23,960 bases of DNA from a virus, in the IMG/VR virus record IMGVR_UViG_3300037963_001837, positions 1 to 23,960 of that record. The stretch is one strand, 5' to 3'. The notes under the pieces are model-generated. The model saw only the letters and a list, made by a program, of their open reading frames with translations. It searched no databases and was not told the DNA's origin. Of this stretch, positions 1,995 to 21,500 are shown piece after piece (position 1 is the stretch's first letter; each line of letters starts with the position of its first letter). The translations under genes were made by a program, and so were the position numbers.

Positions 1995-2681
1995 ATGAAG
2001 TTAGGCGACTTATTATTATTAAAAGGTTATATAAATAAAAAACAATTAACCTCTGCATTAAGTAAACAAGCTGAAGAAGCTATTACTTATAATAGGTCAG
2101 TGCCATTAGGAAAAGTTTTAATAGAAGAAGGTCATGTAACTGTAGATGAAGTAGCAGAAGCATTAAACGACCAACAACAAGAAATAAGTAAGGAAGTTAA
2201 AAAGAAAGAGACAAAAGTTATGGCTACAGAAATAGGTGAAGATAGTAAGTTTACATTTGACTTAAAATTTATGGTTACGATAGGAGCTGTTATAGTATCA
2301 GCTTGTGCTACGTATTTTAGCATACAAGGCTCTATAGATGAATTAAAATCTAATAATAGTCCTAATAGATTAGAATATGATTATCTTAAAGGTGAAGTAG
2401 ATAATATAAAGGCTACTGGTGATTTAAAGATTATTACATATCAGCTTGAAGAATTTAAAAGCACATTTTCTGAGATAAAAACATTAGCTAGCCAATTAAC
2501 ACCTTTAGCTTCTGATTTAGAATATATTAAAGCTGAAATAGAATTACTTAAAAATAAGAAAGTTCCTAAAGTTGATTTGTCTGGAATTGAATATAAGTTA
2601 GATAATTTGTCAAATGATATGATGAATATAGATGAAAGAATGACAAAGCTTGAAAATAAAAAAGATGGAGGAAGATTCTAA
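1995..2681 (+). CDS. MshEN-like domain + membrane helix + coiled coil protein
   Basis: A 228-residue protein in three parts. Residues 2-25 and 37-60 are two 24-residue units with the spacing LG-x2-L-x3-G-x6-L/V-x3-L-x2-Q, the pattern of the tandem motif in MshEN/GspE N-terminal domains of type II secretion and type IV pilus ATPases; several of these bind cyclic di-GMP. Here the first residues of the motifs are Lys and Pro instead of the usual Arg, and the spacer is 11 residues rather than about 5, so ligand binding is uncertain. Residues 92-111 form one membrane helix (FMVTIGAVIVSACATYFSI). Residues about 115-225 are charged coiled coil. An internal ATG at 2220 (Met76, MATEIGEDSKFTF) would give a version without the N-terminal domain, suggesting a fusion onto a simpler phage membrane protein. 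It opens the envelope cassette. Confidence 0.55.
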   Translation: MKLGDLLLLKGYINKKQLTSALSKQAEEAITYNRSVPLGKVLIEEGHVTVDEVAEALNDQQQEISKEVKKKETKVMATEIGEDSKFTFDLKFMVTIGAVIVSACATYFSIQGSIDELKSNNSPNRLEYDYLKGEVDNIKATGDLKIITYQLEEFKSTFSEIKTLASQLTPLASDLEYIKAEIELLKNKKVPKVDLSGIEYKLDNLSNDMMNIDERMTKLENKKDGGRF

Positions 2682-2800
2682 TGCCAAAAGGAAAAGGTAC
2701 ATATGGAACAAAAAAAGGTAGACCCCCTAAAAAAGGTAAACCTAAAATGAAAAAAACTAAAACTTATTCTCCTAAGAAAAAAGTGAGAAGAAGTTCATGA
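2681..2800 (+). CDS. 39-residue Lys/Gly/Pro-rich basic peptide
   Basis: Starts MPKGKGTYGTKKGRPPKKGK and ends VRRSS; more than one third of residues are Lys or Arg and there is almost no hydrophobic residue. It has a strong ribosome site (GGAGGA, 2667-2672), overlaps the preceding TAA by one base and overlaps the next gene by four bases (ATGA at 2797-2800). Composition suggests binding to nucleic acid or to acidic surfaces, such as a small DNA-condensing virion peptide; this is inference from composition. The ribosome site and the two overlaps argue that it is a real gene despite its length. Confidence 0.6.
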   Translation: MPKGKGTYGTKKGRPPKKGKPKMKKTKTYSPKKKVRRSS

Positions 2801-3852
2801 ATTATGCAAGAGTTATTTGTTATTTATTTACGTATGTTAGCTTACTTTGTGCTGGGCTATTTGATAACTCGACTTTATATGTTAGTGGCTCAATGGGTAC
2901 GCCTTATGTAAAAGGAAATGTAGAGCTTGAAGATGATTATAACTATACGATAGGACTAAGAAAAATAGCTTTATTTCCCTATCAATCATCTAAAAAGTTT
3001 TACAAAGGTGATGAATCAGCACTTAGTGATAATGCTTTATTTGGTGCTGTAGATGGCCTAGAATACCTTTTTTCAGCGAGTTCTGTAAGAAATAGGGGTC
3101 ATGCCTACATGAACCAAGAATACTGGCTTAAATGGTCAAATAATCGTTTTATAGTTAAATTTAAGTATTTAGAGAAAGAAAGTAGAGACTTACAATTAGC
3201 TTATGTTGATACTAGAGCTAAGTTTTCTTTAGGTCCTGTATTCTTGTCTTTAGGAACAAATGTAATGGGACACCCAGTATATGGACATCCAGCTTACGAA
3301 GACTATGAAGACCCTTGGTGGTATCTAGCTTATGAATATGGATATACAGATTATTTAGTACCTTTGCATGATTTAAATGGAAACGAAGAAATTGATAGTT
3401 ATTATATATGGATTGAAACTGACCCAATTACTGAAGAGGGTTATTGGGAAATGTTTTATGAAGAAGCTAGTTATTATTGGGAGAACTCTGACTCCGTTGC
3501 AGTGGCATACTCTGATGCAGAGTTTTACGAGTATCATATGCCAGCAATAATAGACCAATATAATAAAGACAACAAAGTTAAAGAATGGCAATCGGAAGTT
3601 AGTATTGTTATAGGTATAGATTGTTATCTTGGAGGAGAAAGATTTTATTCCCATTTTTGGGTTAATGCATTTCCTTATACACATGGTTTGACAGAGAAAT
3701 CATATAATGGAGATAGCATGCAATATGACGTTGGAACTCTGGTTGGTGCCAACCTAAGTGAGCGTATTGGGGTTTTTATTGAGGGTAGTAAATTAAGTTA
3801 TTATGGAAGAGAAGAACATAATATTAGCATGGGAATAAACTACAGATTCTGA
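2797..3852 (+). CDS. Putative phage-encoded outer-membrane beta-barrel protein
   Basis: A 351-residue protein with an N-terminal export signal: Arg5, then the hydrophobic run VICYLFTYVSLLC, with likely cleavage around residues 18-22. The mature part has many Tyr/Trp/Phe residues in alternating patterns (NRFIVKFKYLEKE, VDTRAKFSLGPVFLSLGTN, EVSIVIGIDCYLG, IGVFIEGSKLSYYG). It ends ISMGINYRF, with hydrophobic or aromatic residues at every second position and a terminal Phe, the classic end signal of barrels inserted by the BAM complex. A Tyr/Trp/Glu-rich insert (about 165-240) may be a long extracellular loop. A role in blocking superinfection or altering the host surface, as for Lom-type phage proteins, is inferred. 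Alternatively it is a cargo gene copied from a host. The start overlaps the 39-residue peptide gene by ATGA. Confidence 0.55.
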   Translation: MNYARVICYLFTYVSLLCAGLFDNSTLYVSGSMGTPYVKGNVELEDDYNYTIGLRKIALFPYQSSKKFYKGDESALSDNALFGAVDGLEYLFSASSVRNRGHAYMNQEYWLKWSNNRFIVKFKYLEKESRDLQLAYVDTRAKFSLGPVFLSLGTNVMGHPVYGHPAYEDYEDPWWYLAYEYGYTDYLVPLHDLNGNEEIDSYYIWIETDPITEEGYWEMFYEEASYYWENSDSVAVAYSDAEFYEYHMPAIIDQYNKDNKVKEWQSEVSIVIGIDCYLGGERFYSHFWVNAFPYTHGLTEKSYNGDSMQYDVGTLVGANLSERIGVFIEGSKLSYYGREEHNISMGINYRF

Positions 3853-3941
3853 TGGGAGAATTAGGAGCTTTCTTACTAGGTTTTTTAATAGTGTTCGTAG
3901 GAGGCTTATGGTTTATTTTCGGAGAGGATATATTTAAATAA
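3852..3941 (+). CDS. 29-residue single-pass membrane peptide
   Basis: ATG 3852 shares its A with the TGA of the barrel gene. The product is one hydrophobic helix (GAFLLGFLIVFVGGLWFIFG) with an acidic residue before it and a short GEDIFK tail. It could be a tiny holin-like or regulatory membrane peptide; nothing in the sequence decides this. The overlap with its neighbour and the clean hydrophobic profile support translation. Confidence 0.5.
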   Translation: MGELGAFLLGFLIVFVGGLWFIFGEDIFK

Positions 3942-3942
3942 A

Positions 3943-4113
3943 ATGTTACAAGGAATTATCGTAAAAAAAGTATTAGATTTAGTTATTAAACAAATCTTAA
4001 AAAAGTTCAATTTGGATAAAATACAGAAGTATGTAGAAGAACCAAATGAGCTTGATAAGAAAGTTAAAGCTCTTGAGAAGAAGCTCAAGAAATTAGAGAA
4101 ACTAATCAAATAG
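3943..4113 (+). CDS. 56-residue basic amphipathic/coiled-coil peptide
   Basis: The N-terminal 20 residues (MLQGIIVKKVLDLVIKQILK) form an amphipathic helix suited to a membrane surface. The C-terminal part (about 36-56) is a heptad-like Lys/Glu/Leu coiled coil (DKKVKALEKKLKKLEKLIK). It begins one base after the previous stop, and its own stop region (TAGGAG) contains the ribosome site of the next gene. Function is unknown; the layout is like small phage lysis or membrane-associated peptides, and it may pair with the 29-residue peptide before it. Confidence 0.5.
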   Translation: MLQGIIVKKVLDLVIKQILKKFNLDKIQKYVEEPNELDKKVKALEKKLKKLEKLIK

Positions 4114-4123
4114 GAGAAAGACT

Positions 4124-4273
4124 ATGATGACATTTTTAACAACTAACTGGGAATGGTGTTTATTAGCTTTATATGTAGTTGAGAAAGCAATTAAACTAAG
4201 CCCATCCAAAAAAGATGATTTAGTTTGGGATATGGTTTTAAAACCAATAGTTGATAAAATCAAAGGTAAGTAG
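4124..4273 (+). CDS. 49-residue membrane-associated peptide, possible holin-like
   Basis: Starts at ATG 4124 (a second ATG follows directly) with AGGAG at 4112-4116. The sequence has a short hydrophobic stretch (WEWCLLALYVVEKAI) followed by LSPSKKDDLVWDMVLKP and a basic end (DKIKGK). The hydrophobic run is short for a full membrane helix, so surface association is possible. The TAG stop shares its G with the GTG start of the next gene. Placed among other tiny membrane peptides, it could belong to a lysis or envelope module. No family is firmly recognised. Confidence 0.5.
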   Translation: MMTFLTTNWEWCLLALYVVEKAIKLSPSKKDDLVWDMVLKPIVDKIKGK

Positions 4274-5450: not shown

Positions 5451-8400
5451 ATGGCTAAACAAGTAGAAGAAATACAAGATTTTAGTCAAGGTACTGTTAC
5501 TACTCCTTCGGAAAGAGATATAACTTCCGAAACAGCTGCTTATTCTCTTAATGTAGACCCTTTGACAGAAGATGGTAAATTAATAGGTGTTCCTACAGAT
5601 AGAATGGTTGCATCTCTCTCTAATAATATTCCTTTTCAACCATTAAACTATGGATTGCAATGGGGAGCTTCTGCTATAAGAATAGCAGATTTAACTCAAA
5701 TGCCAGAAGCTACTTTAGATGGGGAAGGTAGTAGGATAATATTTCAAGGGACTAGAGGTATTAATGAAATATTAAAATACACTTCATCTTATTTTGATTC
5801 AAGTCAAATTAAAGATACTTTACTTAATATTGAAGGTGGAATAGGAGATGGTGAAGTAGCAGGAGAAATAAGTAAAAATTGCACTACTCTTAGCGTAATT
5901 GGGCTTGCTTCTAAAAGAGAAGGTTTAATTAAAGATGGAGATGTAATAGCTTTAAGTTCAGAAACTTCTTCTAGTAATATACCTAAAACTATAGAATGGA
6001 TGCTTGTAACATCTGTTGACCAAATTTCTGAACTTATAACAGTTGAAAGAGGTTATTACAATAGTGAACCTGTTAAATATACATCTTTAAGTACTAATAC
6101 TAATATATATAGATTAGATGGTTTATTAGGTTGGTTAAATGTATCAGGATGGCAAACTAACTTTAAGAACAATCATATAGGTCAAAATCCTTGTATTATT
6201 TACGTAGCTAATGCAGGAGCTACATCAGCAGATAATCTAACTCATGATGCTACAAATAAAACTATTACCATCACACAAAATTCACTTGTCAATAATATAG
6301 GGGCTAATGACTCTTTAGAAGATTTAGTAAGAAATAATGATGTTATTAAAATAATTAATGCATCAGGTGGAGTAGCTACAGTTAAGATAGATTATGTTAC
6401 AGATGGTGTTATAAATTACTCCAGCATAAGTGGTAGTCTATCTACCCAAACATCTGGAAGTTATTGGATAGATTGTAATAAAATAGCTAATGGTAATTTT
6501 AGAGCATATGATACTAGCGCTGATGGCAAAGCTCCTTATGGATGGACTACTACTATTAATCCTTCTGGAACTGCAACATATGATGATGTTTATGCAGCAG
6601 ATACTAATAGTATAGGTTCACCTCAATTATCTACAACAGGCGGTATTACAGGGCTTAAAGGAAATGAAAGAGATACCTCTAATAGCAATTATGATTCAAC
6701 CGAGTCACCATTTTTAATTTTGTCAAATGCTAGAGATACCTCAATAGCAGATGTTACTTTAACAGATGCTATTGCTAAACTTGAAACAGACAATAGATTT
6801 AGAGTTTCTAATCCAGCTTTATTTTCAGAAGGTGATACTTTAGTATTATCACATGGAGTTGGGGTTACATTAGATAATACTAGTGGTGATGCATATACAG
6901 GAACTGATGATAATCCTTATTTACAAAATCATTATAACCCAGGATATATGTATGAAGCTTTAAATGTAGCTAGCTTTACAGATAATGATACTTTTGAAAT
7001 TAATGTTCCTACATCTATAGGTGGAAGTGGAATAAATATATCTATGAGATTAGAAGATACTTCAAGTGGAACTTTAACTTCAGCTGGAGCTAATGCATAT
7101 ATATCTGTATCTAATGAAGATGCAGCAGGTTCAAACGCTTCAGATGCTCAATTAGCTATTAATATAGTAGCAGCTATAAATGGATGTCCTGATGTCCAAA
7201 GAGTAACATATGGAACTACAGATGGAACAGGAGATACAACAACTGGTGTAGCAGGACTTAGTGCAGCAGTAAATGCAGAAACTAATACTAAAGTAGATAT
7301 ATGGCCTACTAATGGGGTTGCAGAAGAATATGTAAAAATTGAAAAAATAGAAGTCAGCCAAGATGCTGATGGAGATGCACAACCTGGATTTATAACAGTT
7401 AAAAGAGCTTATCATGGTAATTTACAAGCTCATACAGCAGGAGTATCTATAAAAAGAATTTTAAGAAATCAAATAAAACAAACTGTTGGAGCATCTGGAT
7501 TTGATTCTGTTCAAGAAGGCAAAAAATATAAATTAACATGGTGGGTAGCTGATGTTACTAAAGCTTGGTTAAAAAACAATGATTATCATTTAAAACCAAG
7601 ATTAAATTTTAAAATAGGATGTGCAGGAGGTTATGTACTAGGGGGAGAAAATTGGACTTCTAATAAAGAATTAGTAGGAGCAAATGGAGAAAAAGCTTGG
7701 CTTAATTCTGCTGATTATACTGTAACAACAGATAGTAATCCAAAAACAGAAAAAGGAGACTTAGGAGGTAGTATATATCATACTTGGGCTGGTAATAAAG
7801 ATATAACTAATGCATCTGCAACTGGATGGGTTAGAGGAGTTGTAAGTAGTAGATATCAAATAGGTTTAAATAATCTTCCTAAATTAGCAAGCTCAATATC
7901 TTTTGTTCAAGATTCAGGTACTACTCACAATGGTAACTGGACATTAGGCGATGCTTCTAATGAGAACTTTTCTAATGTTAATGGAAGTTCTACTTATGTA
8001 GAAACTCAACCTACTGCTTTATTACATTTAAGTGGCGCAATACATAATAAATCTATTATAGGTATTCCAAATACAAATGGAGACCAAGTTTATTATGCTG
8101 GAGTAAATGCATCATTAGCAGGAGAAACTGCCCCAAATACTGATGGTAGTGACCCCAAAAGAAGAGTTTATATAGAATTTGAAGATTTTGTAGGTGATTT
8201 AAGTTATGGAAATGACCATACTGATTGGCTTCGAAATGTTCAAATATTTTTGTCTGCTGCTGATGGAACGTTTGCTACATTTCATTTTCCACAAAATACA
8301 CCTAATGGTACTACTAATTTTATAGATGGAAAATCTGCTGGTGATGGAACGACAGTAGCAACTGGCGATGAACTTAGAGATAATGTAACTCAAGCATATG

Positions 8401-11400
8401 AAAGGAAATTTTATTTAATTCCAACAGATGGAGCAGAAGTAGGAGCATATAAAACTTTACCAACACAAATATCATCTGGAGGAACTTGGGTTGAAGACGG
8501 AACAGATAGTAAAGCAGGAGCTGTATTAGCTACTGGTGTTGCATGGGCTAAAGGATTAAAAACAGCTATAGAAAGAGTTTTTAATAATTACCAAGGTGAT
8601 GGTGTTACAAGATTTAATGTTTATAGAGATGGAGCTAAATTATGTATAGAGGATGCTATAGGAGGAACTATATCTAATACTTGGGTAGGTAAATATACAG
8701 ATTCAAATGGTAGTTATTACCAATATGATACGCTTCATGTAAGTCATTCATCTTCATGGCCTGGCATTAATAGAGGTTCTACTGAAGGCAAGATGCATTT
8801 TAGATTTTCTGTCCATGGTCATGAATATGATGAAACTGGCTATACATTATACAATCTTGACTGGGAAAGTATGTTGGAAAATAGTGGTCAAGGTGTTTGG
8901 GATACAGGGTCATCTGACCATAGAGGGTTTCTTAAAGGAGATGGCTTAGGGTTTAATTTAGGAGGAATAATAGAAGGAGGAGGGTATCCTGCTGCTGGTT
9001 CAGATATAAATAGTGTTAAAGAGTTTTTAACATGCTATCATATTGGAGCTGGCCCTACTGCAGCACAAGGAGCAACTAACTTAGATTTAGCTATAGAGCA
9101 TGCTAATGGACAAAATGGTCTTATTACTGGTAATGTAGCAAGTACAGACCAATTAACTTTAACAAGAACAGATTCTACTGGATTACAAACTATTGATACA
9201 GCTAGATTTCCAGATAGATTAGAAGCTGATTCTATAACAACATTTAGTGAAGGTGGAGTAGCAGATGTTAATTTTGAATTTTATACAGGGGTTAATAATG
9301 CTGATACAGGTTCAGGTAAAACCATTCTTTGGCATAAATGTGAATTTGCTTTTACACTACCTGATGACAAAGATATATCTACATTAGATGTATATTTTGA
9401 ATCTGATGGTGAAGTGTGGGGAACTAGAAATGGTGGAACAATAGGTTCTAGCGTAGTTGATAAATACTCATCTTTAATAGGTATAGATTCTATATCTTTA
9501 GTAGAAGATGTAGAGGTGCTTCCTTCAACAGGCGTTAATACAGAGATATCATCCTCTGCTACTATAAAAGACCCAGATGGAAAAGAATTATTAATATATC
9601 ATGACAAAGCTAACAATAATATAAATGTATTAGATGATTTTGGAGACCCTTTAGATGGACACACTAATATGTTTAGAGATACAGAGGGGATACCTTTTTC
9701 AATTTCTACAGATATAGACCCTGTTTTTACTAAAAATAATAGAGAGTTTCATATAGGAATGGGACCAGAACAAGAATCTGTTTGGGCTGGATATTTAAAT
9801 CACAAGCAATTTGGAACAGATTTGTCAAATACATTCTCTATTGAGCAAAGTAGTATCGGAAGCTATGATGCTCAAGGAGCTTATTCTATGGATAAAATAT
9901 CTATGGCAGGTTTTTGGTTATGCGAAGTAGGGGCTGGAGCAACTCCAGATGGAACAGGATGGAGATTATCTATACCTAAGTCTGAACATAATTTAGAAGT
10001 TGGTGACAAGTTAATATTAAATGGAGTTTCAAATAAAAGAACACATGAAAACTCAGGTTCTGTTGCGACATTAGATAACGATACATATGATGCTACATGT
10101 ATGTTTATGCATGATATTAGGACAAATACTAGCTCTAGTTCCAATCAAGATGCTGGAGATAGTATTACATCTATTACTGACAATTATATATATGTAGAAG
10201 ATGTACAAGCTGGATTAAATGGTCTTTCTGGAGATTTTGCAATACAAGTTTATCTTCCTTATTATTATGGGATATCACGTGATTCATTTAATATATTTAG
10301 AATTAATGGTAGCACTGGGGAAGTAACTAAATCTGAACTTTCATTTAAAGCTCAAAGTATTTGTGCTTCTTATTCTCAAGCTGCAGAAGAAGTAGGAGAT
10401 TCAGGAACTAGATTTCAAGGCGGAAGAGTATGGATTATAGAAAAATCAGCAGGACAAATACATAAAATAAACGTAGCTAAAACAAAATTTGAAAATTTTA
10501 CAAAAGAAGTTACAATTAGTCCTAATTGGTGCACTTGGTGGAGTAGTACAGAAGAAAATGCTTCTGATGACGAAATAGTGACAAAAGAAAAACCTCCTAC
10601 AGATAGAGGGCATATGTCTGATATAGTAGAGACATGGGGTTTAAAAGGCACTACAGATAGCCTTACTAATGATTCAGATACTAGGCTATGGGTTCAGTTT
10701 TATCCTAATACTGGTGGTTTTTTCGGACCTTTAGATAACTTTATTTATTGTGGAAATACAGATGGATTAGACCCAATATCTACTAATCATGTTAATTTTT
10801 GCAATAGAACAATTCCATTAATACATACAGGAGGAGGTACACAATCTAAGCTTGACCCTCATGATAGATATGGAAAATCTTTAGTTGACCTTCAAAACAA
10901 CCGTTCGACTTTAGGTAATGCTAACGATAGTTTAGTTCAAAGAGGTTCTTTGATAGCTAAAACAAAAAAACGTTCACATGATATTAGTCCTTCTTTTGAG
11001 AGATTTTGTTGGTATAACCCTGAGTATATAAATCACCATTGGGACTCAGACCCTAACGCTGATTTAAAATATATAAGAGAATTGCATTTTAAGAGAAATA
11101 ATGGTAACTGGAATCACGACTACCATGGTACATGGGATGGAGGAACGGGCTTTAGGAATTATGCAGAAAATATAGGATGGGATGATGACGCTCCTGAATT
11201 TAAAATGATTAGATATGGCTTAATTCCATTAGCTGATAATGATTTTGATGGAGTTATAGATGGAACAGGTTTGCCCGTAACTAGTGCTGCAAATGTTAAT
11301 ATAGGCTTTGTAAATGGAAAAGACTGTTCTAGTCATGCTGCTGCTGTTTTAATGCAAACTGAATCTAAATGGATTATGAATGGACAAGTTTCTGTATCTC

Positions 11401-14400
11401 AACCTCATAATGGTGCAGTAGCACAAGAATGGACACTTAGAGAGCAAATGGGGGTTCATCATTCTGGCGTTGGTTATTCTAAAACTTCTTTTCCTAAGTC
11501 AGTAGAATTGTTTAAACCAGATGCTTTTTTTATGGTAACATCTGATATTTGGAAGCAAGAAATAACAGCTGATAGCACAAGCTTACATACTGAAAATGCA
11601 GATGGAAATAGCAGGGGGGCTTGGATAATACCAGACAGTGGTAGTTATGGAGGTAAATTTAGTCATGCTTCTAAAAGCAATGCAAGTACAGATGGAGAGT
11701 TAGAACATTGGTCTTCTAGTGATGCTAGTGACCCTGATGCTGTTATATTAAAAGATAGAGTTCATTTATTTAGAACGGCAGACAAACATAATTTGACAAT
11801 TGGTAGTAACATTGTATTTAATTCTCCTGCTACAAATGTTGAACATTATAGTGCAGTATTTGGGTGTGATGGATGGCATAGAACTCCAGAGTATGCAGGT
11901 ATGTGTCCTATAGTAGGTATAGTAGATGAATATCATTTTTTAATAAATATAACTCACAATGGTAATGGAACAGGTACTTCTGCTGGTGCTGGTAGACCAG
12001 GAGGTAATACTTATGTAGATACTAATGGAGGGGAAACTGGAATACTTTACGATTTTATGCAATGGAGGTCTGGAGCTACAGAATGGAAAATTCAATCTGA
12101 TACTGGAACTAGTAAAGAAGTAAACCAAAATAGATATTTTGGAGGAAGGGTAGGAATTAGTGAAGAAAAAGTAGAAGGGGCAGGTGTTAGATTTTTCTCA
12201 GATGGAAATTTTATAGGAAACACACATTTTGCTACTGATTCTTCCAATAGCACAGACCAAATGTGGCAAAGACGTCAAGGTGTACATGTATTTCAAACTA
12301 GTTTATTAAGTTTTTGTCATGGTAGAATGATACGTCCTTTAGGAGACATGGATGTGTCTGGAGTAGCTAATTTTAATATAGATAATTCTATTTCTATGTA
12401 TATGCCAGTATCTCCTGTAAATTCAAAAGGATTAGCTCATTTTAACACAAACGCTTACACTTATTCTCCAAAAAGTATTTTATGTGGAACTAAATTATAT
12501 CTTTCTCAAAAAGATGGAGATGACACTAAAATATACAGCTTTGACTGGGATAATATAATGCCAGATACAAATAGAGCTACTTTTGAAGGTGTAGATTATG
12601 GAGAAAATACTGATATGTATTCTAGTCATAGAAGTTTTGGGACTTATGAACTAGGAGATAGACATAGTAATCATCGTAGACTTACAGCAGATATGAGTCA
12701 TTATAATATGCATGCAAGTGATGCTCATCATGAATCTGCAAAAGGTAGGTTTATATTGCCAGGACCTCGAAGTACACAAAGTTCAGATACTGGGATAGAT
12801 GGAGGAGCAAAAGATGCAGCTAATTCTCAAAGTTTTATGATACCAGGTGGTTTTATGATTAAACCTGGAGCTAGTAGATGGGATAGTCTTGGAAGTTATG
12901 CAGGCTTAGATGCAGTTGATAATACGAAACAAAGTCAATCAGGAGCAGCTGGTTTAATTCTTGGAGGAACTGTAACAGATTTAGCTAATGATAATGGAGG
13001 AGTAAATCATACTGGAGGCTCTTTATTTAGTCCTTGGCATGGTGATAATAGACATAGTCCTTATTTAAGAAAAGGAGGTTTAAATGACTTAGTTGCTATA
13101 TGGTCTTATACTTCCCCTCATAGAGAAATGAAACAAAAGCAAAAGACAAGTGGGACAGCAGTTAATAATTCTAATTTTAGCGAAAAATGGGCTTTGGGAT
13201 TAGGGAGAAGTGTTGCAAGAAAAGTGATAAGTTCTTATGCTACTTGTGGAGGTTATGCTGATGCTGTAACAGCGGGAACCCTTCATAAAGAAAGTCTTTG
13301 TAGTTATGATAATAATACAGCTAGATGGATAGTAGCTGCAGATGGAGAAGTAAATGACTCATATGCTGCTTTAGGATATTCTGGTAATAATATGTTAGTT
13401 ATGATTGATAATGCACATAGAGCTTGGTCTAATACGTGCGGAGAAGTATTTGTCAGAACTCATTACCCTTTACCAGGAACTCCAGGTGTTAATGCAGGTG
13501 AGTCTGTTACATTTATACAATCAAGAGATGCAGCTTTAGCCCCTGTTAGATTAGATTTAGAAAGATTACCAGCTTATCATGGCTATACTGGAGGTGGAGA
13601 TAAACCTATAGTAAGAGTTGAAGGGGTTCCAAATTCAGACCAAATAAAGATATTACAAGGAGTTCCTACAGAAGATTCTAGTCATGTAGGGGTTATAGGA
13701 AACGGTGAAAGTGATGGAGAGTATGCTATTACTATGCCTCCATCTTTACTACATACTGGTAATAAAGTTAGAATTACTGGAACTTCAAGTTATAATGGCG
13801 AATATACTTTTGCTTCAGATAGTGGCAACTTTCAGCTTGCTGATGGATATACTGGTAATTCAACTGCTGCTGAAGCTGGAAGAATGGAAATATTAGGAAG
13901 TGGAAATAAAGCTAATCCAGTCACATTAGAAGGAGTCGAAGGGTTAACTTTAGGCGGCAGAAGGGTTAACAATAGAAATAATGTAGGTAATGTAGCAAAT
14001 ACAGATACTGGTTCTGGATATTGGTATGACAGAATAATGGGCGTCACTAAAGGTGGAAAATTTAAAACAGGCTTTATTCATTCTTACTTTAGTCATTCTG
14101 CTTTTTATACTATTTATCAAAAAAATGCAAACAACAAATACAGGATATGGTATAACAATCAATATAATTACTGGAACTATAGTGAAGGGTCAACAACTTC
14201 TAATAGTTTATTAAAAGGCCCTGAAGGACATTTATTTGAAGCTGAAGTAGGTTTTTCTATTGAGCCTGGTTCTTCCTCTGGCTCAGGTAGTCCTAATTTT
14301 ACTGCACATGGTGATTATAGATGGAAAGTGTCTTTAGTTTATGATGGCTACCAAGAAGGTCCTTTAAGCGAAACAGCTTGGCCTTATAGTGTATCAGGAG

Positions 14401-15710
14401 GAGATACTTATAGTTCAATGAAAATAACTATGACTATTAAAGCTCCTGAAAAAAGATTAACTTCTGTTTGTTTATATAGAAAAAATGATGATAATGATTT
14501 ATATAGATTAGTAGAAGAAGTTAGTACTGAATCTGTTAAGTGGATATCTTCTAATAATGAACACACTATAACTATTACAGATGATGGAGGACTAGAAGCT
14601 ACTTTTGAATCAAGAGCAGGATATTCAGAGTTTTTAACAAATCCATATATTAATTATGGAATGGGAACATCAATGTCAGGATATCATTTTGTAGGAAACT
14701 GCAAACATCCGCAAATAAAAGATGCTTCTCATATGATTTTTAGGTCTTTGCCTGGTCAGTTTGATTTGTTTAATTGGGCTAATGATTTCTTGACATTGCC
14801 TTCAAAACCAACAGCAATGGCTAATTTTGCTGGTAGATTATATGTATTTGACGAAATAAATACTTACAGAATAAATCCTGAAACTTTAGTTATTGAGGAC
14901 ACATTTCATGGTTCTGGATGTGTAGATATGAGAAGTTTAATAATTACTGATTTTGGTATGTTTTATTGCGATAGAAATAATGCTTATATGCATAAAGGTA
15001 GTAATCCTGAGATAATATCTCGTTCTATTAAAAAAGGAGGAGGTTCAGATATAAGTAGTTTTAATATTTCTGATTTTAGTTGGGAACAAACTGCTGGTAA
15101 TCAACACTCAATGAATCCTTTGGTAGCATTTGATAATAAAAGAAATGCAGTTTTATTCTTTGTTGAAAAAACAGGAGATGAAAAAGTTAATCATTCTAGA
15201 TATTATTGTTGGGCTTATTCTATAATGCTATCAAGATGGGATTTATGGGAAGTTTCTACTGGAGATAATGGTGCTGGTGTATTTGACTCAAGTAAAGTTG
15301 TTGCTCCAAGTAGTGTTATTACAACTACAAAAGGAAAAACATTTGTTACTATGGGAGATTTTATAATAGACTTCTTAGGAGGAACTGCTACTAAACCTTG
15401 GCAATTTTTAAGTAAAAAACTTACAGTAGGACAACAAAGTCAAAAGAAAGTATGGAAAAATATTCAATTAATAGGGAATGATGATGATGTTATTACATCT
15501 GTAGGAGACCCTAAAGGAACTATATCTATAGCTATAGATGATACAGTTATATCTGGTTCAGATAGAGTATTTACAAAGGATTCTCCTGACGGAAAAGTAA
15601 CTATAAAAGGAACATCTAAAACTGGTAGGTATATGCAGTTTCTGTTAACTCAAATGGAATCTTCTGTAGATGCTTTTGGTATAGTCTTTAGAAGAAAAGG
15701 AATTAAATAA
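5451..15710 (+). CDS. Giant 3419-residue tail protein, nozzle/hub-like ends
   Basis: Very large, Gly/Ser/Thr/Asn/Asp-rich and poor in Cys, with almost continuous beta-strand pattern. The N-terminus (EIQDFSQGTVTTPSERDI, then NVDPLTEDGKLIGVP) and the last about 465 residues (from DYRWKVSLVYDGYQEGPLS at 2955, through NFAGRLYVFDEINTYRINPE at 3125-3144, to the end) resemble the two ends of beta-propeller tail proteins of short-tailed phages. Between them lie about 2,800 residues of extra beta domains, including at least four divergent copies of one module (near 448-525, 1506-1548, 2103-2179, 2758-2810) and two copies of an ITV-[EK]-R-[GA]-Y motif (near 196 and 650). A DNDFDGVIDG loop at 1929-1938 looks calcium-binding. 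It may form the tail nozzle with huge decorations that also bind the host. It ends TAATG into the next gene. Confidence 0.5.
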   Translation: MAKQVEEIQDFSQGTVTTPSERDITSETAAYSLNVDPLTEDGKLIGVPTDRMVASLSNNIPFQPLNYGLQWGASAIRIADLTQMPEATLDGEGSRIIFQGTRGINEILKYTSSYFDSSQIKDTLLNIEGGIGDGEVAGEISKNCTTLSVIGLASKREGLIKDGDVIALSSETSSSNIPKTIEWMLVTSVDQISELITVERGYYNSEPVKYTSLSTNTNIYRLDGLLGWLNVSGWQTNFKNNHIGQNPCIIYVANAGATSADNLTHDATNKTITITQNSLVNNIGANDSLEDLVRNNDVIKIINASGGVATVKIDYVTDGVINYSSISGSLSTQTSGSYWIDCNKIANGNFRAYDTSADGKAPYGWTTTINPSGTATYDDVYAADTNSIGSPQLSTTGGITGLKGNERDTSNSNYDSTESPFLILSNARDTSIADVTLTDAIAKLETDNRFRVSNPALFSEGDTLVLSHGVGVTLDNTSGDAYTGTDDNPYLQNHYNPGYMYEALNVASFTDNDTFEINVPTSIGGSGINISMRLEDTSSGTLTSAGANAYISVSNEDAAGSNASDAQLAINIVAAINGCPDVQRVTYGTTDGTGDTTTGVAGLSAAVNAETNTKVDIWPTNGVAEEYVKIEKIEVSQDADGDAQPGFITVKRAYHGNLQAHTAGVSIKRILRNQIKQTVGASGFDSVQEGKKYKLTWWVADVTKAWLKNNDYHLKPRLNFKIGCAGGYVLGGENWTSNKELVGANGEKAWLNSADYTVTTDSNPKTEKGDLGGSIYHTWAGNKDITNASATGWVRGVVSSRYQIGLNNLPKLASSISFVQDSGTTHNGNWTLGDASNENFSNVNGSSTYVETQPTALLHLSGAIHNKSIIGIPNTNGDQVYYAGVNASLAGETAPNTDGSDPKRRVYIEFEDFVGDLSYGNDHTDWLRNVQIFLSAADGTFATFHFPQNTPNGTTNFIDGKSAGDGTTVATGDELRDNVTQAYERKFYLIPTDGAEVGAYKTLPTQISSGGTWVEDGTDSKAGAVLATGVAWAKGLKTAIERVFNNYQGDGVTRFNVYRDGAKLCIEDAIGGTISNTWVGKYTDSNGSYYQYDTLHVSHSSSWPGINRGSTEGKMHFRFSVHGHEYDETGYTLYNLDWESMLENSGQGVWDTGSSDHRGFLKGDGLGFNLGGIIEGGGYPAAGSDINSVKEFLTCYHIGAGPTAAQGATNLDLAIEHANGQNGLITGNVASTDQLTLTRTDSTGLQTIDTARFPDRLEADSITTFSEGGVADVNFEFYTGVNNADTGSGKTILWHKCEFAFTLPDDKDISTLDVYFESDGEVWGTRNGGTIGSSVVDKYSSLIGIDSISLVEDVEVLPSTGVNTEISSSATIKDPDGKELLIYHDKANNNINVLDDFGDPLDGHTNMFRDTEGIPFSISTDIDPVFTKNNREFHIGMGPEQESVWAGYLNHKQFGTDLSNTFSIEQSSIGSYDAQGAYSMDKISMAGFWLCEVGAGATPDGTGWRLSIPKSEHNLEVGDKLILNGVSNKRTHENSGSVATLDNDTYDATCMFMHDIRTNTSSSSNQDAGDSITSITDNYIYVEDVQAGLNGLSGDFAIQVYLPYYYGISRDSFNIFRINGSTGEVTKSELSFKAQSICASYSQAAEEVGDSGTRFQGGRVWIIEKSAGQIHKINVAKTKFENFTKEVTISPNWCTWWSSTEENASDDEIVTKEKPPTDRGHMSDIVETWGLKGTTDSLTNDSDTRLWVQFYPNTGGFFGPLDNFIYCGNTDGLDPISTNHVNFCNRTIPLIHTGGGTQSKLDPHDRYGKSLVDLQNNRSTLGNANDSLVQRGSLIAKTKKRSHDISPSFERFCWYNPEYINHHWDSDPNADLKYIRELHFKRNNGNWNHDYHGTWDGGTGFRNYAENIGWDDDAPEFKMIRYGLIPLADNDFDGVIDGTGLPVTSAANVNIGFVNGKDCSSHAAAVLMQTESKWIMNGQVSVSQPHNGAVAQEWTLREQMGVHHSGVGYSKTSFPKSVELFKPDAFFMVTSDIWKQEITADSTSLHTENADGNSRGAWIIPDSGSYGGKFSHASKSNASTDGELEHWSSSDASDPDAVILKDRVHLFRTADKHNLTIGSNIVFNSPATNVEHYSAVFGCDGWHRTPEYAGMCPIVGIVDEYHFLINITHNGNGTGTSAGAGRPGGNTYVDTNGGETGILYDFMQWRSGATEWKIQSDTGTSKEVNQNRYFGGRVGISEEKVEGAGVRFFSDGNFIGNTHFATDSSNSTDQMWQRRQGVHVFQTSLLSFCHGRMIRPLGDMDVSGVANFNIDNSISMYMPVSPVNSKGLAHFNTNAYTYSPKSILCGTKLYLSQKDGDDTKIYSFDWDNIMPDTNRATFEGVDYGENTDMYSSHRSFGTYELGDRHSNHRRLTADMSHYNMHASDAHHESAKGRFILPGPRSTQSSDTGIDGGAKDAANSQSFMIPGGFMIKPGASRWDSLGSYAGLDAVDNTKQSQSGAAGLILGGTVTDLANDNGGVNHTGGSLFSPWHGDNRHSPYLRKGGLNDLVAIWSYTSPHREMKQKQKTSGTAVNNSNFSEKWALGLGRSVARKVISSYATCGGYADAVTAGTLHKESLCSYDNNTARWIVAADGEVNDSYAALGYSGNNMLVMIDNAHRAWSNTCGEVFVRTHYPLPGTPGVNAGESVTFIQSRDAALAPVRLDLERLPAYHGYTGGGDKPIVRVEGVPNSDQIKILQGVPTEDSSHVGVIGNGESDGEYAITMPPSLLHTGNKVRITGTSSYNGEYTFASDSGNFQLADGYTGNSTAAEAGRMEILGSGNKANPVTLEGVEGLTLGGRRVNNRNNVGNVANTDTGSGYWYDRIMGVTKGGKFKTGFIHSYFSHSAFYTIYQKNANNKYRIWYNNQYNYWNYSEGSTTSNSLLKGPEGHLFEAEVGFSIEPGSSSGSGSPNFTAHGDYRWKVSLVYDGYQEGPLSETAWPYSVSGGDTYSSMKITMTIKAPEKRLTSVCLYRKNDDNDLYRLVEEVSTESVKWISSNNEHTITITDDGGLEATFESRAGYSEFLTNPYINYGMGTSMSGYHFVGNCKHPQIKDASHMIFRSLPGQFDLFNWANDFLTLPSKPTAMANFAGRLYVFDEINTYRINPETLVIEDTFHGSGCVDMRSLIITDFGMFYCDRNNAYMHKGSNPEIISRSIKKGGGSDISSFNISDFSWEQTAGNQHSMNPLVAFDNKRNAVLFFVEKTGDEKVNHSRYYCWAYSIMLSRWDLWEVSTGDNGAGVFDSSKVVAPSSVITTTKGKTFVTMGDFIIDFLGGTATKPWQFLSKKLTVGQQSQKKVWKNIQLIGNDDDVITSVGDPKGTISIAIDDTVISGSDRVFTKDSPDGKVTIKGTSKTGRYMQFLLTQMESSVDAFGIVFRRKGIK
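6792..7025 (+). repeat. Internal module copy 1 of the giant tail protein
   Basis: Residues about 448-525. Core pattern: strand, 'F/L-x-x-G-D-T-L-V-L' turn and strand (SEGDTLVLSHG), variable loop, then 'D-N-D-T-F-E-I-N-V'. It matches the commonly seen phage module of the type 'GD-x-V-x-I-x-G ... tF-x-I'. Boundaries are approximate; the copies are too divergent to be seen at DNA level. Confidence 0.4.
9966..10094 (+). repeat. Internal module copy 2 of the giant tail protein
   Basis: Residues about 1506-1548: LSIPKSEHNLEVGDKLILNG, then SNKRTHENSG and ATLDNDTY. It has the same HNL-x-x-GD-x-L order as the other copies, with a shorter tail. Boundaries are approximate. Confidence 0.4.
11757..11987 (+). 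repeat. Internal module copy 3 of the giant tail protein
   Basis: Residues about 2103-2179: VHLFRTADKHNLTIGSNIVF, then a longer loop (GCDGWHRTPEY) and VDEYHFLINITHNGNGTGT. The HNL-x-x-G core is nearly the same as in copy 2. Boundaries are approximate. Confidence 0.4.
13722..13881 (+). repeat. Internal module copy 4 of the giant tail protein
   Basis: Residues about 2758-2810: LLHTGNKVRITGTSSYNGEY, then TFASDSGNFQLADGYTG. This is the copy closest to the widespread phage module with 'tGdkVrItGts-YNGeYt' followed by a strand containing 'F-x-L/I'. Boundaries are approximate. Confidence 0.45.
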
Positions 15711-16557: not shown

Positions 16558-17334
16558 ATGTCAAATTGGGCAAGTAGTCAGTCGTACTCAAATATGTTAA
16601 ACCAAGGTAAGAAATTTGGAAAGATGGTTAATCCTCAACAAATTCAGCAAATAATGCAGCCTACACAAAACATGATAGACCAACAAGTTGATACAAGTCA
16701 ACAATTAATGGACCCTAATTCAGATATTAATATGCAAATGAAAAATCTCATGGCTCAAAGAGCTGCAGAAGCAGGACAGCAACAAATGGGTGCTATGAGA
16801 AGAATGGCTGCACAAGGTGGTATGTCAGCAGGTCAAGCTATGATGAATGCTAGGATGAGCATGGGGCAAGCTATGGGGGATGTTAATCAACAAGCTTTAG
16901 AGGCACAACAAGGACAGTTTGCTCAAGGAGCAGGTATGATGCAAAACATGACTCAAATGCAACAATCTTTAGGTCAGCAATATTCTAATGCTTATCTTCA
17001 AAGAATAGCTCAAAATAGATTAGTTAAAAAGAAAAAGAAGAAAAAATGGTATAAAAAATTAGGTTCTGCTCTTAAAGGAGGACTTAAAATAGCTAGCACT
17101 GTAGCTAGTATGTCTGATAAAAGATTAAAGAAAAACATAGATTTAGTAGGTAAATCTCCTAAAGGACATAATATCTATGAATTTGAATACACAGATAAAA
17201 ATTTAGGACCTCATAGATATAGAGGTGTTATGGCACAAGAAGTTCCTTTTGCTTCTATGTCTGATTCAGATGGATATTTATTTGTCAATTATAGTCATCC
17301 AGACTTAGACGTTCAATTTGAAAGGGTTAAATAA
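16558..17334 (+). CDS. Gln/Met-rich virion protein with C-terminal S74 (intramolecular chaperone) domain
   Basis: A 258-residue protein. Residues about 20-150 are Gln-, Met- and Ala-rich helix (NPQQIQQIMQPTQNMIDQQV, then GQQQMGAMRRMAAQGGMSAG). A basic patch (LVKKKKKKKWYKK, about 155-167) and a short GlyAla hydrophobic stretch follow. The C-terminus starts SDKRLKKNI (186-194) and continues with NIYEFEYTD, HRYRGVMAQEV and DGYLFVNY. This is the peptidase S74 / intramolecular chaperone pattern: these domains trimerise a partner chain and cut themselves off at the Ser of the SD-x-R-x-K motif. S74 domains usually end tail fibres or spikes; here one ends a short helical protein like an internal virion protein. 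It has its own AGGAGA site and ends TAATG into the next gene. Confidence 0.65.
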   Translation: MSNWASSQSYSNMLNQGKKFGKMVNPQQIQQIMQPTQNMIDQQVDTSQQLMDPNSDINMQMKNLMAQRAAEAGQQQMGAMRRMAAQGGMSAGQAMMNARMSMGQAMGDVNQQALEAQQGQFAQGAGMMQNMTQMQQSLGQQYSNAYLQRIAQNRLVKKKKKKKWYKKLGSALKGGLKIASTVASMSDKRLKKNIDLVGKSPKGHNIYEFEYTDKNLGPHRYRGVMAQEVPFASMSDSDGYLFVNYSHPDLDVQFERVK

Positions 17335-18591: not shown

Positions 18592-21500
18592 GTGGCTGTT
18601 GAACAGCAAATACAATTTGAACCTCGTTTAAGTTCAGACCAAACTAGAAATGTAATTTCTAGTTATAAACGTAATCCTCGAAGATACAATGAACAACTTC
18701 TCGATGAAATAAGGCAACACGCATATTATCATAATATCCCTTTCTATGAAGGTGACTTTTCTATCATAGATGCTGTTAAACAAGCAGGAGGGGGCTTTAT
18801 TGAAGGTTTTACTACTTTAAAGGTAGTAGACCCTCCTGACAACGAATACGAAGCAATAGCACGTAATATAGGCCATTTAGCAGGTTTTGCTCCTGGCATG
18901 CTAGCTGGACCAGCTAAAGCTCTTAAGCTTACTGGTATGGCTAAAGCAGCAGGATTTTTAGCTGATAAATCTGTACCTATGGCGGCTGCAAAGTTTGCTA
19001 CTGATAAAGCTAGAGGAATAGTAGGAGGCTTAGTTAAAGCTAGTCAAGGTAGTAGATTCCAAGCAGCTAATGCAGCTAGTAAATTCTTACTTGGCAATAG
19101 AGCTAAACATATAGCAGAAGGAGCTTTTCATTTAGGTGTAGCTAGTTCTGTATCTTCTGTATGGGAAGGTGTAGATGTTATGCTTGAAAGTTTCTTTGGA
19201 GGAGCTATAGCTGGTGGTGTATTTAGAGGTATAGGTAATGTAATACCTGGAGACAAAGGGGCTGATAAATTTGTAAGAGGATTAGCTGGTTCTTTGTTTA
19301 TGGGAATACCTGCTAGTCAAAGAGGAGCTACTACTCCAGAACAAGTATATGAATATCTAATGGGTGCTTACTTTGGTAGTAAAGAAATGCCATGGTTTAG
19401 AGCTAGAGCAGGCAAATTCCTATCAAAAATGGAAGAACAAGCTAGAAAAGACCCTAAGATAGCAGTAGAAAGAAATCCAGCTGATATGGAAGGATTTTCA
19501 GAGTTACCTGAGATAGTACAAAAGCATGTTAAAAAACAAGCTGAACAAATATATGGTAATTGGGCAGATAATGCAGGTAGAGCTCATGAAACTATGAGGC
19601 AATTAGGTATTTTAGAACAGATACCAGCTGATGCCCCTATGGAGATGGGTTATCCTTTATATCTACAAAAGGTAAAGGAATCCTTAGCTTCATCTTCAGG
19701 AATGAAAGCAAATCAATTATTAGACTTTGGCGTTAGTGGAGGAGGCACAGGAGCTGATGCTACATGGGCTACATATTTAAAGAGAGCTGGAGTACCTACA
19801 GTTCATTATATTTCACAAGGTCAAAGCGGAAGATTAACTAAAGCTAAAACTGCTGGTGTACCTAGAGAAATGTCAAAGAAAGAACTTTTAAATAACTTAG
19901 AAGAAGTAGATAGAGCAGCTTCTAATCTTAATAAACAAACTCCATCTGATGATTATACCTTAGATTTACAGCTTAGAAATGCTGAAATAGTAAAAAAATC
20001 ATCTAAGATATATGCAGTAGGGACTATAATGTCTCCTAGCTCTGCTAATAAACATACTAAAAAGAATCCCCAATTACATGGAAGAGCAGTAGAAGGTGGA
20101 ACTGGATGGGGAGTTCAGATGGCAATGAATGTAAGAAAACCTATATTTGTCTTTGACCAACCTAGTAAGAAGTGGTTTGCATTTGACTATGGAGTTAAAG
20201 GCGGTGGAAGATTTAGAGTTATGGAAGGTATTCCTGATTTAGTTAAAAGACCTGGATTAATAGGTACTAGAAAGCTTACTAAGGCTGGTAAAAAAGCTAT
20301 TAAAGATGTTGTTGTTAAGAAGTTTCCAGAAGCTTATAAAGGACAAAAACCTGATGAATCTCAAAAAGGTATTAATGCAGATATATTAGATAAACATCCT
20401 GAGGTAATTAAAGAGTCTATACAATTAGCTGAAAGACAGAGAGAGTTAACTAAAAATATAACTGAACTTGAAAATGCAATAAAAGACAAAGAGATAGACA
20501 AGAAAAACATTGCCAAAGCTAAGAAAGAAATAAAAGCTAATAAAGCTGAGTTTAAAAAGAATGATAAAAGATTAACTAAATTAAATAAACTTTCTCCTAC
20601 TCAACATTTTGACATTGAAGGCAATGTAGTTGATGAATCTGCTCCTTCTGTAGATACAGGTATGACTAATGCTAATATAGGAAATAAAGCAGAGTATTTT
20701 GTAAGAAGTTTTATGAGAGATTTATATAAAGGAGATGAGCTTCCTCAAACACAAAATGCTAGGATAGCTAATGTTTCTAAACAAATACATCAATTATTTA
20801 CAAAGCATTTTGATAAGAATTTTAAAATAAATAACTCAGAAGAGTTTGCCGCTGATATACAAAAGATATGGCCTAGAGATTTATCTAGAGAAGCTAAAGG
20901 TTATTTAAGAGCTTGGCTAAGGTCTTCTAATAATGGCAAATCTAATACTTATCTAATGGTATCTGATAAAAGAATAAGATTGACTAATCCTAATAATCCT
21001 AGGACTTACGCTGGTAAAAGAAAGAAAGTTCAAAGAGCTCCTTCTGTATTAGAATTATTCTATGAAGCTAATAGACCTAAAGATGATATAGGTGAGCCTA
21101 TTGTTTTATTTGACGAAATAACAGTTAAAAACAAAAGAGGAAGTAACATAGATGTTCCTTTATATAAACTTAAAAAGCATTGGGCTAATGAAAAAATAGG
21201 TCCTAAAAATATACGTAGAGGAGAAAAGAAAGCAGAAACTAAGTTTAGAGCTTTGCAATCAAAGATTATAAATTATATGTTTAAAAATCATAATATGGTT
21301 CCTTTAGGTGGAGTAGGAGATAAAGCTAGAATGATGTTTGTCAAAGTACATCCTAATGCTAATTTAAAACCTGCTAAAATTAAAGCTGAAGTTGCTACTA
21401 TTAGAAACGAAATTAATAAGTTTAAATACAAAGATAAAAATGGAAAAATTAAAAAGCTAGATAAAGACGTTATTAAAAAGTATAACGCTGATAAAAAGCA

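Follow-up and report, generated by a model that had tools for sequence, protein, structure and literature searches.

A phage protein that joins an MshEN domain to a membrane coiled coil and is paired with a predicted outer-membrane barrel

MshEN is the cyclic di-GMP (c-di-GMP) receptor domain of bacterial secretion, pilus, and polysaccharide proteins. Its strict motif, RLGxx[LVI][LVI]xxG[LVI][LVI]xxxxLxxxLxxQ, occurs twice with a spacer of 5 residues, and in MshE the ligand is contacted by the first Arg, triangular clusters of Leu, the backbone amides of the Gly and of the residue next to it, and two Gln (PMC5013675). In GSPII-B of Thermus PilF, Lys167 and Leu196 replace both Arg, yet c-di-GMP is bound at 6 nM, while binding is lost when both Gln are changed to Glu (PMC11731258). 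Here, we describe a gene (positions 1995 to 2681, plus strand, as are all of its parts) in the IMG/VR virus record IMGVR_UViG_3300037963_001837, whose first 23,960 nucleotides, the whole stretch analyzed, are called the window below. The gene encodes a protein of 228 amino acids in which an MshEN domain precedes a membrane helix and a coiled coil (together, the core). It belongs to a family of 77 distinct homologous genes, all from contigs of marine viral metagenomes; many of them are close relatives, and the counts given here overstate their independence.

Residues 1 to 60 of the protein almost certainly adopt the MshEN fold. The NCBIfam profile NF053729 (c-di-GMP_motif, MshE-related), with a curated cut-off of 38 bits, matched the whole protein with 42.5 bits (E = 4e-11) and residues 1 to 75 with 47.3 bits (E = 1.3e-12), and a six-frame search of the genome with the same profile gave 47 bits and recovered both motif halves in this gene. 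When the protein was searched against the sequences of the PDB, the first match was Thermus PilF (4e-5), followed by MshE (5HTL), which was not significant alone. In the AlphaFold 2 (AF2) model, built on 29 aligned relatives, the N-terminal domain consists of four helices (residues 3 to 9, 15 to 31, 38 to 44, and 50 to 71) with predicted local distance difference test (pLDDT) values of 76 to 85. Among the PDB structures compared by Foldseek, only c-di-GMP-bound MshE (5HTL) and c-di-GMP-bound PilF GSPII-B reached a probability of 1.00, with root mean square deviations of 0.7 to 1.7 (0.7 for the best PilF entries); the runners-up were PilB-PilZ complexes, with a probability of ca. 0.9. The E values of the MshE and PilF matches were modest (0.09 to 0.6) because the whole low-confidence model had been used as the query. 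A preliminary description, made from the letters of the window, had already assigned the domain to MshEN and named the lack of a match and a different predicted fold for residues 1 to 65 as grounds for giving the assignment up; we found a profile score above the cut-off and a matching fold.

The same description had spoken of two exact 24-residue units. Their positions and length proved right: motif I (KLGDLLLLKGYINKKQLTSALSKQ) covers residues 2 to 25 (positions 1998 to 2069) and motif II (PLGKVLIEEGHVTVDEVAEALNDQ) residues 37 to 60 (2103 to 2174), both within the NF053729 match, with a linker of 11 residues between them (2070 to 2102). Their residues, however, depart from the strict motif, with Lys and Pro in place of Arg, Tyr or His at position 11, Val at position 17 of the second unit, a few further hydrophobic changes, and the longer spacer. 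His47 violates even the relaxed published motif, at one non-contact position. The Pfam scan of the protein gave no T2SSE_N/MshEN match, and a DUF4388 match was below threshold. No family of ATPase (Walker) domains was found in the profile searches, residues 76 to 228 being taken up by the membrane helix and the coiled coil, and the fusion of MshEN to these elements, as first described, is genuine, and many phages have conserved it. With MshE and Thermus PilF (NF053729; 5HTL and 8PDK), the phage domain thus shares the tandem 24-residue motifs, the four-helix fold, and the Leu, Gly, and Gln of the contact set, and with PilF GSPII-B the Lys at position 1 of motif I. It differs from them in its linker (5 residues in MshE), in having neither the second subdomain nor the ATPase, in its place N-terminal to a membrane coiled coil, and, at the level of the family, in the loss of the pocket in some relatives (type B, below).

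The type of domain described so far (type A) was found in 56 of the 77 genes, including that of the window. Conservation was analyzed in 45 distinct type A and 18 type B domains. The Leu, Gly, and Gln of the contact set are present in the window as L3, G4, L18, L22, and Q25 in motif I and as L38, G39, V53, L57, and Q60 in motif II. Across type A, position 1 of motif I was Lys in 44 of 45 domains (K2 in the window), G4, L18, L22, and Q25 were invariant, and residue 3 was Leu or Ile; in motif II, the Leu, Gly, and Leu equivalent to L38, G39, and L57 were kept, the Gln was present in 43 of 45, and Val or Ile stood at the third Leu (residue 53). Contact positions had a mean entropy of 0.26 bits versus 0.79 bits for the other motif positions (permutation P, 0.004, an optimistic value since the type A sequences share kinship), and the type A domains are under purifying selection, with a median pN/pS ratio of 0.23. 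PilF GSPII-B, a 6 nM binder, likewise has Lys where MshE has Arg, and Lys2 is therefore no objection to binding. On this conservation, we lean toward the view that the MshEN domain of the window binds c-di-GMP.

A search with the C-terminal part of the protein uncovered a second kind of N-terminal domain, type B (MNIGDYLLKSNKITQKQREKAELEHEVSGNKFGKCCLDLGFITRTELNQAIKAVQ...), in 19 of the 77 genes, with a linker of 5 residues and NF053729 scores of 33 to 39.5 bits. In all 18 type B domains analyzed, positions 17, 21, and 24 of motif I were Arg, Glu, and His, and the Gln of motif II was Val or Ile; these losses exclude the canonical c-di-GMP pocket in type B. The remaining 2 genes start at the core. 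One of them (L079) is a truncated locus, while in the other, L083, the core gene truly stands alone: it starts at the Met of the module junction, has AGGAGG upstream, and has no MshEN domain anywhere in front. Placed on a tree built from the core only, the labels A, B, and none need 5 changes, of which at least 4 are forced by well-supported branches. Thus, the MshEN module has been exchanged repeatedly, at least four times. Given that type B lacks the contacts and that one member lacks the domain, c-di-GMP binding is not a universal function of the family.

Several points weigh against ligand binding in type A. As type B and L083 demonstrate, a c-di-GMP pocket is dispensable to the system; the turn glycine of motif II (Gly46 in the window) was present in only 22 of the 45 type A domains, being replaced in half; and the linker exceeds that of the solved structures by 6 residues. 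No GGDEF protein was found in the 10 related virus records searched. Scans of species-representative genomes with the whole protein and with its barrel partner (see below) gave no relative, and therefore neither a host nor a cellular origin was assigned. The alternative that MshEN is here a purely structural or protein-binding module, serving oligomerization or docking and holding no nucleotide in type A or in type B, draws on the same retention of the fold in type B with Arg, Glu, and His in place of Leu, Leu, and Gln in motif I and Val or Ile for Gln in motif II, on L083, and on the frequent loss of the turn glycine; moreover, the contacts are no more invariant than many surface residues that do not touch the ligand. 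Against it, type A keeps Lys, Leu, Gly, Leu, Leu, and Gln in motif I and Leu, Gly, Leu, and Gln in motif II in almost all of the 45 domains, with a stronger conservation of contact sites relative to other motif sites, and we regard it as somewhat unlikely.

Holin/antiholin genes with dual starts, such as lambda S105/S107, yield a long and a short membrane protein from one frame with two starts. The module junction of the phage gene has a comparable arrangement: it is an in-frame start codon in all 75 fused genes (69 ATG and 6 GTG). A Shine-Dalgarno match of at least 5 nucleotides preceded the junction start in 53 of 75 cases, whereas only 5 of the 197 remaining in-frame ATGs had one; the mean match at the junction was 5.1 versus 4.05 under synonymous codon shuffling, and Glu codons just 5' of the start were GAG in 53% of cases versus 22% overall. 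In two loci (L019 and L022), the Met codon has shifted, and an ATG close by, equipped with its own ribosome-binding site, takes over. Together, these codon-level signals make it very likely that two products, the full-length protein and a form without MshEN, are made in the family. The internal start at Met76 had been raised in the preliminary description, and the family bears it out better than the window does. There, the probable second product (positions 2220 to 2681; 153 amino acids, membrane helix and coiled coil without MshEN) is preceded by a weak Shine-Dalgarno-like AAAGAG (2205 to 2210), where most relatives have a strong AAGGAG or GAGGAG, and given only this AAAGAG, a second product in the window itself is plausible but not strong. 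The difference from lambda S105/S107 is that the long form would gain a whole folded regulatory domain, one that is swapped between phages.

A more informative feature, missed in the preliminary description, is the constant pairing of the core with a gene for a predicted outer-membrane beta-barrel (positions 2797 to 3852, plus strand, in the window). Its AF2 model (pLDDT 76) and alignment show a signal-peptide-like helix (residues 2 to 18), ca. 14 strands, and a C-terminal Phe, which is followed by an extra Lys in the 3 most divergent homologues. Nearly all of its Foldseek matches in the PDB were outer-membrane barrels, among them porins and the FapF transporter, and the likeness was one of class only. 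No homologue of the barrel was found in the phage collection or in species-representative genomes. A homologue lay downstream of the core in all 65 loci with enough sequence, the other 12 of the 77 ending too early, and it remained downstream even with genes inserted between the two. The gap is usually 0 to 3 nucleotides, and in most loci the genes overlap or abut. Pairwise distances in the core correlated with those in the barrel at 0.55, with those in its own MshEN domain at 0.36, and with those in a nearby metallophosphoesterase gene at 0.12; core and barrel behave as one unit, with MshEN as an accessory.

Within the core, a single membrane helix (residues 92 to 110; positions 2268 to 2324; mean hydropathy, 1.94; within AF2 helix 90 to 119) is predicted to have its N terminus inside and its C terminus outside. 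It is followed by coiled-coil-like helices, putatively periplasmic, over residues 125 to 224 (positions 2367 to 2666), modeled as helices 125 to 140, 143 to 186, and 196 to 224 in a part of the AF2 model (residues 66 to 228) that is of low confidence. Considering the pairing and these predictions, the core and the barrel very probably form an inner-membrane/outer-membrane pair. A comparable described arrangement is that of lambda Rz/Rz1, which shares with the phage pair the adjacency of two genes, a separate endolysin, an outer-membrane partner, and, as far as predicted, an inner-membrane protein with an N-terminal membrane helix and a periplasmic coiled coil. The phage pair differs in that its outer partner is a beta-barrel instead of a short lipoprotein, in its presumably cytosolic MshEN module, in its inner component of 228 amino acids, and in the lack of sequence homology. 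Barrels of the FapF type, with a coiled coil at their periplasmic mouth, were the best class of PDB fold match for the barrel, with TM-scores of 0.3 to 0.4 that indicate a class-level likeness only; in the phage pair, however, two separate proteins supply the coiled coil and the barrel.

The related contigs, of ca. 48 to 55 kb and 32 to 33% G+C, carry genes for a large terminase, a portal, a capsid, a connector, and a long tail, and an exact terminal repeat of 74 bp was found in one contig, G005. An endolysin is present (PHROG 465, E 2e-39). A six-frame lipobox scan, which recognized its three positive controls (Rz1, Lpp, and Pal), came up empty for G001, G004, G005, and the window; the one lipoprotein candidate in G003 was discarded as implausible, since it is out of frame inside the terminase gene. 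G001, G003, G004, and G005 each had just one convincing single-pass membrane protein of this kind longer than 45 amino acids, namely, the MshEN-core protein. A survey of spanins reported some phages without any lipoprotein and considered that an outer-membrane protein could in principle act as an o-spanin (PMC6139136). By the criterion published there, the absence of a convincing lipoprotein gene means that these phages have no canonical o- or u-spanin.

Our preferred reading, offered tentatively as a whole, is that of a modular envelope protein of uncultured marine tailed phages, paired with a barrel, that would act in lysis in a spanin-like manner and would be tuned by c-di-GMP in its type A form. 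The inner membrane would hold the core protein, from which MshEN would project into the cytosol and the coiled coil into the periplasm, and core and barrel would form an envelope-spanning complex late in infection. Their most likely job would be the last step of lysis, that is, the disruption of the outer membrane. We propose this because the genomes encode an endolysin yet offer no lipoprotein that could be taken for a canonical o- or u-spanin; the lysis role itself is a conjecture to which we likewise give only tentative credence. The internal start would supply the form of the core without MshEN, the full-length type A form would probably be a c-di-GMP-tuned regulator of the core (a subunit, a brake, or a timer), and the type B module would keep the fold and use another partner. 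The most specific version, a new two-component lysis device in which the barrel replaces the o-spanin lipoprotein and which is tuned both by host c-di-GMP, through the swappable MshEN domain, and by the ratio of the two products, seems to us distinctly unlikely.

A number of observations speak against a lysis role. The core gene lies among connector and tail genes and not beside the endolysin, the co-divergence of core and barrel is partly due to physical linkage, and the topology derives from a single hydrophobic helix together with a weak bias in charge (7 versus 4 Lys/Arg). Matches of the core to holin and Rz-like families were weak (PHROG 1296, E 4e-4 on L083; PHROG 739, E 0.06), and many spanins are linked through conserved cysteines, which the family does not generally have. 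Profile matches of the core to coiled-coil, holin, and spanin families were not counted at all, as many coiled-coil families with no relation to it score just as well.

If not lysis, the pair could serve receptor masking or superinfection exclusion, with the barrel remodeling the outer membrane, the coiled-coil protein anchoring or gating it, and MshEN tuning or assembling the whole. The predicted Sec-exported barrel would suit such a role, other phages also encode outer-membrane proteins with barrel folds, as predicted in a structural search, and a tight pairing of two genes fits any membrane device. Still, the genes lie among late structural genes of endolysin-bearing phages in which no integrase or lysogeny gene was noticed, and exclusion requires neither a coiled coil that crosses the periplasm nor a cytosolic second-messenger module, and thus we consider it unlikely. 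Quite improbable is a virion role, in which the core would be packaged and injected to build a channel for genome delivery across the envelope. The position of its gene between connector and tail genes would fit, and ejection proteins of podoviruses do form envelope-crossing channels, but the signal-peptide-like N terminus of the always-linked partner implies that this partner is made and exported by the infected cell, no virion role is obvious for the internal start or the swapping of MshEN, and a DNA-ejection-like gene is found elsewhere (positions 16558 to 17334).

The preliminary description had also suggested a place on the host pilus or secretion machinery, for which no evidence was found. 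In its strongest form, the domain would be a decoy that mimics the N terminus of PilB/GspE, captures PilZ, GspL/PilM, or the platform, and blocks pili or secretion. Foldseek did match PilB-PilZ complexes, and phage proteins that disable PilB exist, namely, Tip, Aqs1, and Zip (PMC11656802), which are likewise connected with an MshEN-bearing PilB system. These inhibitors, however, are small, soluble, and not MshEN, whereas our protein carries the MshEN fold itself, lacks both an ATPase and the second (C-terminal) N1 subdomain, and has an outer-membrane barrel as its invariant neighbor with no pilus link found, all of which makes a decoy highly improbable. Finally, a sponge that sequesters c-di-GMP or 3'3'-cyclic GMP-AMP (3'3'-cGAMP) and blunts host signaling or the cyclic oligonucleotide-based antiphage signaling system (CBASS) is scarcely credible, since although phage nucleotide sponges exist (PMC11722364) and MshEN binds cGAMP weakly (dissociation constant [KD], 330 uM; PMC5013675), the membrane anchor, the late structural gene setting, and the conserved outer-membrane partner suit a sponge poorly, and pocket-less relatives persist.

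Regarding the surroundings of the gene, its stop codon shares one base with the next ATG, that of a small basic open reading frame (ORF) of 39 amino acids between the partner genes (positions 2681 to 2800, plus strand), absent in most relatives. The ribosome-binding site of this next gene, GGAGGA (2667 to 2672), lies within the codons of the conserved C-terminal GGRF, and GRF/RF is invariant in group A1; GGRF was dropped as a protein motif because it covers that site. Extra genes inserted exactly between core and barrel genes were also seen in L133 (400 to 1602), L088, L102, L103, and L036, which marks the spot as a hotspot of gene gain. In L083, the ORF directly before the core gene (upstream of position 3394) encodes a small membrane protein (MDVFQVLEQYGVPIAVAVAFGFFIWKQNKY...; PHROG 18771, E 1.5e-7), whose match to the holin family PHROG 4898 (E 0.22) was too weak to use. 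The best viral structural match of the barrel was A0A516LKJ4 (Foldseek E 9e-24).

Three small ORFs after the barrel gene are possible lysis genes: 3852 to 3941 (29 amino acids, a membrane peptide), 3943 to 4113 (56 amino acids, an amphipathic coiled coil), and 4124 to 4273 (49 amino acids, a holin-like peptide, TTNWEWCLLALYVVEKAIKLSPSKKDD, that has relatives in other genomes). Farther on, positions 5451 to 15710 encode a tail protein of 3419 amino acids, a single gene that takes up more than 40% of the window and has relatives of 1834 to 1945 amino acids in the same place. The product of 16558 to 17334, the DNA ejection-like protein, has a C terminus like that of peptidase S74 (endosialidase chaperone). 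The gene at 18592 to 23958 (plus strand) runs off the end of the window and encodes more than 1789 amino acids, with a DprA-like domain (PHROG 768, E 2e-4, residues 379 to 521) that tblastn also located within the annotated virion RNA polymerase of Klebsiella phage Pylas; near its C end, GADLDGDEAFFYF recalls the DxDGD motif of RNA polymerases, and it is possibly a new virion polymerase.

No convincing copy of MshEN was found in 50,697 phage records, the best two matches (E 0.3 to 0.4) being in unannotated metagenomic records, and these phage records held no homologue of the protein, the core, the barrel, or the type B domain; our literature search found no paper on a phage-borne MshEN. Although the domain is already known, its joining to a membrane coiled coil and the barrel partner are new to us. 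If the phage domain binds c-di-GMP, an envelope protein of a phage would read the lifestyle signal of its host. The pairing with a barrel, with no convincing lipoprotein gene, is a testable candidate for the way in which phages without spanins break the outer membrane, and the natural variants with type A, type B, or no domain on the same core offer a ready-made comparison for the role of the module.
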